From: Prevotella sp.
Lineage (GTDB): Bacteria > Bacteroidota > Bacteroidia > Bacteroidales > Bacteroidaceae
Direction: 5' to 3'
DNA length: 48,593 bases
Assembly: GCA_017475265.1 (NCBI GenBank)
Contig: JAFVFY010000016.1
Coordinates: 1-48,593 of the forward strand
Shown here: positions 22,585 through 48,593 of the stretch, piece by piece
How positions within the stretch are numbered: position 1 is the first letter of the stretch
Layout of the letters: each line of letters begins with the position of its first letter
The notes under the pieces: generated by a model
Database searches by the model: none
Seen by the model: the letters and a program-made list of their open reading frames with translations, nothing else
What the model was told of the DNA's origin: nothing
Position numbers and translations under genes: made by a program

Positions 22585-22594
22585 GGTTATTTAC

Positions 22595-22758
22595 GATTTA
22601 CAGATTTTCGATTTACGATTTATTTGGGGATTTTCGATTTACAGATTTTCGATTTACGATTTATTTGGGGATTTTCGATTTACAGATTTTCGATTTACGA
22701 TTTATTTGGGGATTTTCGATTTACAGATTTTCGATTTACGATTTATTGGGGAATTTTC
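22595..22758 (-). repeat. 41-bp minisatellite, four copies
   Basis: Four head-to-tail 41-base units start at 22595, 22636, 22677 and 22718. The first three are identical and the fourth has small changes near its end. Each unit contains GATTTACAGATTTTCG, GATTTACGATTT and TTTGGGG. The array lies 10 bases upstream of the aminotransferase ATG and 7 bases from the exchanger stop. Copy number is likely to vary between strains. Confidence 0.95.
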
Positions 22759-22765
22759 GATTATT

Positions 22766-44539: not shown

Positions 44540-44571
44540 TTTGGTCGTTTCGATTGAAAAGTGTAATTTTG
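44540..44571 (+). promoter_or_regulatory. Promoter of the DUF4143 ATPase
   Basis: TTTG (44540-44543), a 20-base spacer and TAATTTTG (44564-44571) form a good Bacteroidetes promoter. The box lies inside the first of three 33-base repeats; the other two would be in the mRNA leader. Confidence 0.7.
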
Positions 44572-44638
44572 CAGCACGAAATTTTATTGAAAAGTGTAGT
44601 TTTTGGCTGCCAAAAGTTATTGAAAAGTGTAAATTGCC
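44553..44638 (+). repeat. Three 33-bp repeats upstream of the DUF4143 ATPase
   Basis: ATTGAAAAGTGTA occurs at 44553, 44586 and 44619, exactly 33 bases apart. The bases after each copy also stay similar (ATTTTGC, GTTTTTGGC, AATTGCC). The third copy ends 7 bases before the ATG. Confidence 0.9.
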
Positions 44639-46128: not shown

Positions 46129-46536
46129 CTACAGGTCTTTGTACTCTGAGCAGTCGAAACAGGGACAGGCTTTCTTCACTCCAGGCAGGTCACTATGGCC
46201 AACGATTTCTGCCTGTGGATGCTCAGCCTTCAGCCGTTTGAGCAGCGTTAGCATAGCTTTCTTCTGTTTAGCGGTACGGGTGTCGGCGGGGTTCCCTTGT
46301 GAGTCCAAACCACCTTCATAGCACACGCCGAGTGAGTGTTGGTTGTAGCCCTTGGCATGGGCACCAATCAGCTGTTCATGGCGTGTCTGGTAGATCCGTC
46401 CGTCGCGGGTGATGTAGTAGTGGTAGCCCGTAAAGCCGAAACGGTCGGCATGGCAGCGTATCAGCGCCGTGACAGGAAAGTTTTGGTTCGAGCGCGTGGC
46501 CGAACAGTGAATGACAATCAGATCAATTCGTCTCAT
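46129..46536 (-). CDS. N-acetylmuramoyl-L-alanine amidase (Amidase_2)
   Basis: A 135-residue zinc amidase resembling phage T7 lysozyme that cuts between MurNAc and L-Ala in peptidoglycan. Visible metal ligands are His in VIHCSAT and the His/Cys pair in VGHSDLPGVKKACPCFDC. YHYYITRDGRIYQ and IGAHAKGYNQHSLGVCYEGG are conserved. There is no signal peptide, so export would need a holin or lysis. It ends the DUF4248/HU/smalltalk gene set, as I recall it often does in Bacteroidales mobile or phage-like modules. Confidence 0.92.
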   Translation of the reverse strand: MRRIDLIVIHCSATRSNQNFPVTALIRCHADRFGFTGYHYYITRDGRIYQTRHEQLIGAHAKGYNQHSLGVCYEGGLDSQGNPADTRTAKQKKAMLTLLKRLKAEHPQAEIVGHSDLPGVKKACPCFDCSEYKDL

Positions 46537-46610: not shown

Positions 46611-46727
46611 CTATAATGCAGGGCTCAAGCACGATGTGGTTGTAAGAGTGGTCACGATGGCGGTGAGCACTGTGATGATGAACTGGATGATGGTCTTCCA
46701 AGTCTTCAGGTCTTTCAGGAATTTCAT
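46611..46727 (-). CDS. Smalltalk protein
   Basis: A 38-residue peptide starting MKFLKDLKTWKTIIQF. A single hydrophobic segment (about residues 13-28, IIQFIITVLTAIVTT) is followed by LTTTSC. This pattern, a short basic N-terminus, one helix and a lipobox-like TTSC end, is that of the Bacteroidetes 'smalltalk' family, which has no known function. Longer upstream in-frame starts lack family similarity. It lies 74 bases upstream of the amidase gene. Confidence 0.75.
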   Translation of the reverse strand: MKFLKDLKTWKTIIQFIITVLTAIVTTLTTTSCLSPAL

Positions 46728-46929
46728 AATCGTTAAGTCTGAGTTTAGTTTGTTGTGTCGGTTCTTGATTTGGAAAGAAATTGGCAGGAATTGGCCAGAA
46801 ATCTTTGTTTTGAACACGAATCGCCACAAATTGACCATGAATATTCATTAATGAGAAATTCGTGATTCATTCGTGGCAATTCGCGTTAGAAAAGAGAAAT
46901 CCGTTTAATCCGTCAAATCTGTGGTCGGA

Positions 46930-46982: not shown

Positions 46983-47420
46983 CTACGGGTTCGGAGTGTC
47001 ATCGTCGTCCTTCTTGGCCTTCGTGGTCGCCGTGGCCTTCTTCAGTGTAGCCTCCAGGTTCAGGTTCTTGGCTACCAGTTCTCCGGTGGCGCGGGAACGG
47101 AGCTTCACGCCCTTGATGTTACCCGTCACGGTGAAGTCCTTCTCGGTGTCGGCACCGCCACGGTTCTTGATGCCGAGGGAGAAGATGGCGAGGTCGTCGA
47201 TCTTCACGTTCTTGCCCTCCAGGAGCAGTTCCTTGATGCAGCCCACCATGTCGGTGAGCATCCCCTTGATGACCCCCTTCGAGAAGGGTGTGTTGTGCTT
47301 ACTCATGTGCCCGGCAAGCCCATCGAGTGTTACGGTCTCCTCGATGACGGGATAGGCAAAGAACTTCCCGAAGACTGTCGAGTTCTCGTTCTTGTTCTGA
47401 CGCAAAATGTACAAAATCAT
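46983..47420 (-). CDS. HU-like DNA-binding protein (HU-HIG type)
   Basis: A 145-residue protein of the Bacteroidetes histone-like group. The N-terminal region (GKFFAYPVIEETVTLDGLAGHMSKHN) and middle (GVIKGMLTDMVGCIKELLLEGKNVKIDDLAIFSLGI) form the HU-type helix-sheet core, and the tail is Lys/Ala then Asp-rich. It is expected to bind or bend DNA. It sits between DUF4248 and smalltalk genes. A TACCTTTG box at 47521-47528 gives a leader of about 95 bases containing a small inverted repeat (ACTCTG-T-CAGAGT at 47493-47505). Confidence 0.88.
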   Translation of the reverse strand: MILYILRQNKNENSTVFGKFFAYPVIEETVTLDGLAGHMSKHNTPFSKGVIKGMLTDMVGCIKELLLEGKNVKIDDLAIFSLGIKNRGGADTEKDFTVTGNIKGVKLRSRATGELVAKNLNLEATLKKATATTKAKKDDDDTPNP

Positions 47421-47520
47421 AATCGTTTACTTTTTGTGTTGGTTTGAAAAATGAGAGTGCCAGATATGCTATCGCGAATCACATTCCCTGCAACTCTGTC
47501 AGAGTGTTTCTCTGATATTG

Positions 47521-47528
47521 CAAAGGTA
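47521..47528 (-). promoter_or_regulatory. Promoter box of the HU-like gene
   Basis: TACCTTTG on the minus strand matches TAnnTTTG; no clear TTTG at the expected distance. Confidence 0.5.
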
Positions 47529-47615
47529 CTACTTTTTGTCAGCGCGATTTCCGTTTCCTGTCGTTTGCGCCATATCGCGCAGTCTTTCTGCGATTTCCGT
47601 GATTTCTGTGTGACA

Positions 47616-47801
47616 TCAACCATTCACGTCAATGCAGAACTTGTCTGCGAGGAACATCACGACGTGCGGCGGCAGCACCTTCATCCTCGGGGTCACGCCC
47701 ATTTCCTGTAGTACGCGCTGGTAGGGCCTGCACCAGCTGTTCAGTGTCCTGACCGACACCCCGGCACGGTCGGCCAACTGTTGTTTGCTCATTGCTTTCA
47801 T
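47616..47801 (-). CDS. DUF4248 family protein
   Basis: A 61-residue protein with a helix-turn-helix-like N-terminus (SKQQLADRAGVSVRTLNSWCR) followed by PYQRVLQEMGV and LPPHVVMFLADKFCID. This matches DUF4248, which I know only as small Bacteroidales proteins near HU-like and VirE/VapE genes. The fold suggests DNA binding. The start is 22 bases from an array of four 22-bp repeats, so it could bind those repeats or regulate itself through them. Start at 47801 or the Met at residue 4. Confidence 0.8.
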   Translation of the reverse strand: MKAMSKQQLADRAGVSVRTLNSWCRPYQRVLQEMGVTPRMKVLPPHVVMFLADKFCIDVNG

Positions 47802-47823
47802 AACTATATTGTTTTTGGTTGCT

Positions 47824-47911
47824 AAGTATCATATTTACAGGTGATAAATGCCATACTTACGGTGTCCAAGTGCCATACTTACGTGTCGCAAGTGACATAT
47901 TCTTGTGGGAC
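47824..47911. repeat. Four 22-bp iteron-like direct repeats
   Basis: The core CATA(C/T)TTAC occurs at 47830, 47852 and 47874, with a degenerate CATATTCTT at 47896, exactly 22 bases apart. Each unit opens AA(G/A)TG or AAGTA. Two units share CCATACTTACG. Unit size and spacing are like plasmid iterons. Confidence 0.85.
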
Positions 47912-48017
47912 AGTAGGACAGTAAAGACAGTAGAAAATTGAAACATTTTCGCGTACACACGCACACACGTACGCGAGAAAAGTTTAAAAGTTACTGTCCT
48001 TTACTGTCCACTGTCCC
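47907..48017. repeat. 111-base nested inverted repeat beside the VapE-like gene
   Basis: Outer arms: GGGACAGTAGGACAGTAAA and onward (47907-47933) against the near-exact reverse complement (47991-48017), differing by two single-base gaps. Each arm is itself built of three GGACAGTA / TACTGTCC units. Inner hairpin: TCGCGTAC (47949-47956) and GTACGCGA (47969-47976) with an ACACGCACACAC loop. The right arm covers the last codons and stop of the VapE-like gene. Confidence 0.85.
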
Positions 48018-48593
48018 TTTCCGGTTTCGCTTCGTCGGCCATGATGCGCTGTGCCGCAGCCATCTCTTCGCCTGTGCGTTGCACCACGATGTAGCCCCTC
48101 TGACTGCCATGCTTCACCCTCTTGTAGCCCAGGTCGTTGAAGGCCCTGCCAAGATGGACGGCACTGAGTTTCTGCGAAATGTTCGCACTCACTATCTGCA
48201 TGGCACGGGCCACAGGCATGAAGATGCCGCCCTCAATGCCTACGGGCTTGCGGAAATAGAGATGCACCAGTTCCTTCTCCATTCTGGGTGCCTCGAACTG
48301 GCTGTTGTGCTGCTGTAGCCGCACGATCTCCTCCTGCGTGAACCAGTAGCGGAAGCCCTGCTGGTAGAGCGCATACGCCTGCGAATAGATGCCCTCGTAG
48401 TCGAAGGGATGCTCACGCGGCGACTCTATCGACTCCACCTCGAAGGGCAGCCAGCGGCGGTTGCCCGTGGGGTCTGAGAGGAATTGCACGTTGTTGCCCG
48501 TGCCGCAGAACGAGGCGATATGCTTGCGGTGCTCGTGGAAGTGGGCGTAGGCCGCCCGCTCGTCGATGGAGGGCATGGTCACCGCCGCCTTCA
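48001..48593 (-). CDS. VapE/VirE-type protein, C-terminal part (cut by window edge)
   Basis: The frame is open to the right edge, so the 5' part is missing; about 197 codons are visible. MPSIDERAAYAHFHEHRKHIASFCGTGNNVQFLSDPTGNRRWLPFEV matches the region of virulence-associated E proteins, which are helicase/primase-like P-loop ATPases of mobile elements, running through GNRRW. After about residue 100 a helical C-terminal domain follows. The GTG at 48582 is not a real start because coding continues upstream (KAAV before TMPS). Together with DUF4248, HU and amidase it marks an element remnant or module. Confidence 0.85.
   Translation of the reverse strand, partial: KAAVTMPSIDERAAYAHFHEHRKHIASFCGTGNNVQFLSDPTGNRRWLPFEVESIESPREHPFDYEGIYSQAYALYQQGFRYWFTQEEIVRLQQHNSQFEAPRMEKELVHLYFRKPVGIEGGIFMPVARAMQIVSANISQKLSAVHLGRAFNDLGYKRVKHGSQRGYIVVQRTGEEMAAAQRIMADEAKPERDSGQ

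Follow-up and report, generated by a model that had tools for sequence, protein, structure and literature searches.

This locus raises the question of what a run of 22-bp repeats placed between a VapE-like gene and a small HTH gene does: is it a replication origin or an operator, and which neighbouring protein would bind it? The earlier note had proposed an origin or operator with either the DUF4248 or the VapE-like protein as the binder. What stands of that proposal is a candidate binding-site array for which the DUF4248-type HTH protein is the favoured binder; the VapE-bound origin is not supported by the comparison of related loci described below.

The array and its position

The window, by which we mean the whole 48,593-nt stretch of DNA analysed, is contig C12 of a 4.75-Mb source genome in 135 contigs. 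Its relevant features, which on the minus strand run in the order vapE, HTH gene, HU-HIG gene, smalltalk-type gene and amidase gene, are as follows.

48001..48591, minus strand: VapE-like gene, C-terminal part (PF05272, E 1.9e-16), truncated where the contig ends (48593)
47907..48017, no strand assigned: inverted repeat in which GGACAGT-type words (47907-47933 and 47991-48017) flank a CGCGTAC/GTACGCG hairpin (47946-47979); overlaps the vapE stop
47817..47904, minus strand: four-unit array with a 22-bp period, degenerate in its first unit (47904-47883)
47616..47801, minus strand: 61-aa HTH protein, DUF4248-related by family alignments (HTH_3, E 5e-4, below cut-off); favoured candidate binder
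47521..47528, minus strand: TAnnTTTG box (TACCTTTG), read directly; candidate promoter of the HU-HIG gene
46983..47420, minus strand: HU-HIG protein, encoded by the gene after the HTH gene (PF18291, E 5.8e-13, over cut-off); alternative candidate binder
46611..46838, minus strand: smalltalk-type small protein (PF20096 and NF033879, over cut-off), start uncertain
46129..46536, minus strand: N-acetylmuramoyl-L-alanine amidase (PF01510, E 2.3e-20)

The repeats had been described as four copies of a CATA(C/T)TTAC core at precise 22-bp steps. The step is indeed exact, but only three cores are: CATAYTTAC starts at 47830, 47852 and 47874, and the fourth site, at 47896 (CATATTCTT), keeps the phase and matches the core only in part. 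Read in the direction of the flanking genes, the three units after the degenerate one occupy 47882-47861, 47860-47839 and 47838-47817, and the whole array lies, as had been noted, between the end of the VapE-type gene and the small HTH gene, in a gap of 199 bp. CATAYTTAC occurs five times in the window, twice as an isolated site outside the array (654 and 4585), and 0.24 occurrences per window are expected from shuffling (largest value 2 in 100 shuffles). The self-match of the gap at lag 22 was 44 of 66, compared with a maximum of 37 in 1000 order-1 simulations. Tandem repeats at a fixed helical spacing are a property that the array shares with iterons, and its spacing also falls within the repeat-to-repeat range of about 20-22 bp seen in LytTR sites. 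The window also holds other tandem repeats, namely a 41-bp unit repeated 4.2 times (22589-22762), GACTTTA repeated 18 times (1670-1797) and a 33-bp unit repeated 2.4 times (44553-44632).

In the sense of the HTH gene, the array ends 15 nt before the ATG. No TAnnTTTG box, a motif that we take to be a promoter box, was seen by eye between the array and this ATG. A sigma-70 scan returned one 9-of-12 site that overlaps the last array unit (47832-47803), and sites of this quality in the region number 2, compared with 2.4 expected.

The name DUF4248 is weak for the HTH protein of the window, because this protein gave no match to PF14053 (DUF4248) at E up to 1 and its relatives match below the curated cut-off: three of four scanned relatives gave E values of 0.0025, 0.028 and 0.046 and two further ones 0.0045 and 0.13, with scores of 12.8-18.3 bits against a curated cut-off of 27. 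In Porphyromonas gingivalis the small DUF4248 protein PG_RS02100, whose deletion leads to hyperpigmentation and an oxidative-stress tolerance phenotype, is encoded beside queG, not vapE, according to the available part of PMC6231650, a paper that uses none of the terms VapE, HU family and direct repeat. The DUF4248 literature found, as far as its available text extends, holds nothing on repeats.

Sister copies in the same genome

When the 199-bp gap was used as a BLAST query, 14 matches were found in its own genome, and its kinship to other copies was 97%, 88%, 84% and 85% over most of its length. The best of the own-genome copies carry the dyad core AAGTATSATACTT. A search for the tandem dyad AAGTATNATACTT-N9-AAGTATNATACTT with up to three mismatches detected 32 pairs at 16 places in the genome and none with the reversed control; the array of the window is a worn copy and is absent from these 32 pairs. 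The palindrome score of its consensus was non-significant (p=0.51). The distance between neighbouring cores at 17 own-genome loci was 22 in 108 cases, and any other distance was seen at most 6 times (both strands counted). Among 75 own-genome units, which were picked for resemblance to the core, information resides in AA.TAT.ATA.TT, and the spacer carries next to none. The distribution of the exact word is local: among 150 genomes of the genus, 5 have tandem pairs with no more than one mismatch. Full-length DUF4248-type matches in the genome number four, and at 3 of the 16 places the array precedes one.

Recurrence before DUF4248-type genes

Among 299 genomes of the genus, 76 have DUF4248-type genes. 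Our sample of relatives consisted of the best 80 of 89 loci found in named assemblies, 70 of which (by our own count) are titled Prevotella or Prevotellaceae; together with the window they yielded 77 usable upstream regions, or 70 after removal of redundancy. A significant array (p up to 0.01) was detected in 33 of these 70 regions, the window included. The lag was 22 in 22 of the 33 arrays, 21 in three, 23 in one, 42 or 44 in three and another value in four. The periodicity that had been predicted for homologous upstream regions is thus seen in 29 of the 70, at 21-23 or 42/44 bp; the window is one of the 70, and one of the 29 is a short-period repeat (L152). With a score of at least 28 of 44 at lags 21-23 within 200 bp, short-period repeats excluded, arrays were found upstream of 23 of 76 DUF4248-type genes and of 3 of 191 other genes; a looser score of 25 gave 39 of 76 versus 10 of 191. 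The stretches downstream of the DUF4248-type genes, where 16 of 67 were significant and six had lag 22, include arrays in the gap before the HU-HIG gene and are no clean control.

The words of the arrays vary from locus to locus. Inspected by eye, about 31 of the 40 array consensuses look like versions of a single A-rich/T-rich dyad, and the remaining words are unrelated, as in a 21-bp array with AATAAGCG in L137. Dyad symmetry as a universal property of the arrays was considered and is unsupported, palindromes at p up to 0.05 having been found in 1 of 34 upstream arrays, 2 of 15 gap arrays and 8 of 35 arrays in a hand-picked HU set. Two small genes that read as HigB/HigA toxin-antitoxin-like lie between the DUF4248-type and HU-HIG genes in L125 and L126. 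Two scans of viral contigs, with 21 and 74 pattern matches, revealed none that encodes a relative.

The array of the window lies directly 5' of a gene for a DNA-binding protein, and arrays recur at this place in relatives, as expected of an autoregulatory site. We tentatively read it as an autoregulatory tandem operator of the DUF4248-type HTH gene directly downstream and not as a VapE iteron origin, and we give this reading somewhat less than an even chance of being right. Dimers of the HTH protein would sit on dyads two helical turns apart, hence on one face of the DNA, and, perhaps binding cooperatively, would jointly control transcription of the HTH gene and possibly of the HU-HIG, smalltalk-type and amidase genes as well. 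The control would most likely be negative autoregulation. Against this reading, an array upstream of the DUF4248-type gene is missing from 22 of the 50 loci that have an HU-HIG gene within 700 nt.

Arrays before HU-HIG genes

The HU-HIG protein encoded next could be the binder instead, with one array per operon serving the HU-HIG transcription unit wherever the array is placed; we regard this as unlikely, though it accounts for several observations. Arrays precede HU-HIG genes generally. Such genes were taken in order of E value from 40 searched genomes, and of the 80 stretches obtained, 76 were usable and nonredundant. At a score of at least 30 and lags 21-23, short-period repeats excluded, 28 of the 76 carried an upstream array compared with 3 of the 191 other genes (OR 37, p 2e-14), which were drawn from ten of the same genomes as plain 330-bp upstream stretches that include coding sequence. 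Eight other lag triplets gave zero or one array each. The arrays are unevenly distributed among genomes (9 of 15 genes in G003, 5 of 9 in G017 and 0 of 5 in G006), and some words are palindromic, e.g. AAAACGTATATACGTTTT (L292) and GAATTATAGCTATAATTC (L295). A DUF4248 match just upstream was found in three of the stretches (L289, L301 and L318), and among the 28 with arrays it was detected at L289 only. In G003 the word AAGTATCATACTT stands before an HU-HIG gene at three places without a DUF4248-type gene.

Unexpectedly, the gap between the DUF4248-type and HU-HIG genes also holds arrays, with different words. Among the 57 of the 80 loci in which HU was detected (the omitted 23 include seven that are cut short), 20 had an array upstream only, 20 in the gap only, 3 in both places and 14 in neither at a score of 26, so that upstream and gap arrays tend to exclude one another (p 0.0005). 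The HU gene is more than 700 nt away in seven of these loci; in the 50 with HU within 700 nt the respective numbers were 17, 18, 2 and 13 (p 0.0008). The words of the gap arrays track the HU protein (partial r 0.51, p 0.0005, n 23) and, less closely, the DUF4248-type protein (0.24, p 0.008).

Other results argue against HU-HIG as the binder of the upstream arrays. They are still present at 10 of 19 loci in which HU-HIG either was undetected or lies further off than 700 nt, compared with 28 of 50 with HU near. The word of L132 recurs at loci whose HU proteins score 0.13-0.20 against that of L132, although the HU gene of L132 is 2.4 kb off. HU genes in general show a weak correlation of word with protein (r 0.17, p 0.001, n 33); the most similar pair of words (L253 and L282; 18 of 22) comes from proteins with a similarity of 0.18. 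In the window, the HU-HIG gene is preceded by a TAnnTTTG box of its own, at a distance of about 290 bp from the array; boxes of this kind 3' of HU arrays (9 of 33) were uninformative. HU-type proteins, moreover, usually have little sequence specificity. A purely HU-HIG reading is weakened by the arrays that lack HU, by the weak word-protein correlation and by the arrays elsewhere in the genus that have no HU-HIG gene in their vicinity.

Once HU similarity was removed, the word of the upstream array correlated with similarity of the DUF4248-type protein (partial Mantel r 0.35, p 0.0015, n 33); the corresponding value for HU similarity was 0.27 (p 0.005). Physical linkage to the nearest gene could produce either correlation. 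Given that the arrays persist without a near HU gene and that the words partly track the proteins, each array would most simply belong to the gene behind it, and the array of the window to the HTH gene. The similar 21-23-letter arrays before two families of DNA-binding genes most likely serve as docking sites for the proteins that these genes encode.

The HU-HIG clade (PF18291) comprises expanded and diversified DNA-binding genes in Bacteroidota, as is seen here, and its expansion was reportedly described by Burroughs and colleagues in 2017. PF18291 matches number 30 each in G003 and G018, 11 in the genome of the window and, in other families, 1-4 in all but one of 16 genomes, counts that include ordinary HU proteins, which the model also catches. 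A literature search on HU-HIG, HU clades and HU autoregulation found no report of arrays before HU-HIG genes, and in the available texts from a search on DUF4248, smalltalk, HU, VapE in Bacteroides, 22-bp palindromic repeats, SaPI origins and BrickBuilt such arrays are undescribed.

One could envisage, more speculatively than the operator itself, a scheme of private addresses in Prevotella-type genomes, in which members of the DUF4248-type HTH and HU-HIG families each have their own fast-changing word, set every 21-23 bp before the gene. Such words might insulate paralogues from one another and could be copied elsewhere in the genome, so that further loci come under the control of that protein. 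If each array does bind the protein encoded behind it, matched protein-word pairs from two families could be read from sequence by the dozen, what the expanded HU-HIG proteins recognise would become testable, and ready-made orthogonal regulators would be at hand for gut and rumen Bacteroidales.

Arrays elsewhere in the genus

In 525 kb of other stretches from the genus we counted 19 arrays at lags 21-23, some of them between convergent genes. Part of this sequence comes mostly from contigs that have HU-HIG genes elsewhere, and a search confined to that part and to HU-HIG genes found none. Other families of the order yielded 3 arrays over 273 kb, of which two share a stretch; 50 kb of E. coli contained none. 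The 22-bp arrays are thus a wider habit of the genus, concentrated before HU-HIG and DUF4248-type genes. Four 22-bp palindromic arrays (L335:2507, L335:6913, L334:8057 and L336:13481) lie between genes, two of them between convergent genes; a search of the surrounding 20-kb stretches that was confined to HU-HIG genes found none.

Such abundance would also be compatible with a dispersed minisatellite or part of a MITE, spread by slippage or transposition and devoid of a regulatory role, an explanation that we consider improbable. The sister copies occupy 16 places in the genome, where some are remnants or solo arrays and some of the solo ones are accompanied by the vapE inverted repeat; six arrays, of the AAGTATNATACTT type, adjoin a family of self-complementary repeats of about 450 bp. 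The conservation of the dyad alone, the fixed 22-bp phase, the restriction of the HU-HIG excess to lags 21-23 and the excess before DUF4248-type genes all speak against it. A comparable element in the same order is the BrickBuilt MITE of P. gingivalis, which is intergenic and multicopy, consists of tandem units (23 nt there) and has promoter activity; unlike the arrays described here, which have per-locus words before DNA-binding genes, it represents one word family in one species, as far as the available text of PMC4596501 goes. The self-complementary family itself has about 18 genome copies (L051:1440-2200 and copies in G000).

A regulator encoded elsewhere

A regulator encoded elsewhere, such as a LytTR protein, is a still less probable binder. 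LytTR sites are private direct repeats at a spacing of about 20-22 bp, L113 has GCCACTTAC at 21 bp, and an array remnant at C23:472-610 ends about 90 nt before a LytTR gene frame that starts at C23:699. LytTR sites are direct repeats, however, and the sister copies here are dyads; only that one of the five LytTR genes matched in the genome is within 1 kb of a listed array; and the words of the loci are too different for one shared factor. None of the five LytTR matches is on contig C12, which ends inside vapE.

As an analogy, the nearest parallel known is that of LytTR operons, whose autoregulatory repeats are private and conserved in spacing. In the available text of PMC6193735, the private direct repeats of the LytTR regulatory system, for example ACCACTTAC-12 bp-ACCACTTAC, lie just 5' of the regulator's own operon and are spaced by about two helical turns, with, as here, low conservation of sequence and high conservation of spacing. 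The systems differ in that two repeats are present there and three to five units here, in that the consensus ACCACTTAC is a different one, and in the lack of a LytTR gene on the contig.

VapE and the inverted repeat

That the array represents iterons of a VapE-bound origin, as the earlier note had allowed, is suggested by 22-bp iteron-like repeats beside a VapE-like gene and by a gap G+C content of 39-41% versus 60% in vapE, but is very improbable, for the array is absent from 29 of 50 loci with vapE upstream (present in 21) and present in 13 of the 19 where a DUF6371-type gene takes the place of vapE and in 5 of 7 that are others or cut (at the score of 25 of 44 that 10 of the 191 control genes also reach), no DnaA box (TTATNCACA, up to one mismatch) was found in 47301-48593, although not all iteron origins need one, and vapE has an inverted repeat of its own that is a better candidate. 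VapE as the binder and the array as an origin were rejected on this failure of linkage to an initiator gene. Like plasmid iteron origins, the locus has tandem 22-bp repeats near a replication-type gene; unlike them, its repeats precede a regulator gene, with neither vapE linkage across loci nor a DnaA box.

In SaPI-type origins, a helicase gene is followed 3' by repeats arranged around a centre. The inverted repeat of the window has this layout: directly 3' of the VapE-like gene, GGACAGT-like words head towards the CGCGTAC/GTACGCG hairpin and come back as reverse complements. By analogy with SaPI and PICI replicons, whose words likewise flank a centre and vary between copies, this inverted repeat is a better origin candidate than the 22-bp array. 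SaPI initiators have helicase activity and primases, according to the available part of PMC7145576. Unlike in SaPI and PICI elements, no integrase or primase was recognised by eye among the reading frames that surround the complete own-genome copy (region 2500-9500 of L037), and a role in replication here is putative. A complete paralogue of the VapE-like protein has 441 aa.

Of 51 segments, taken from 50 vapE loci and the window, 33 had complementary arms at p 0.016, which is the floor with 60 shuffles, and the other 18 fell short of it; the segments extend into the array where one is present. The words of the inverted repeat vary by locus, with GTAACAGATG, GTGACGAA, GTGAAGG and others. At L009 (G000:C23:472-1649), an inverted repeat stands together with the array remnant that ends about 90 nt before the LytTR gene frame.
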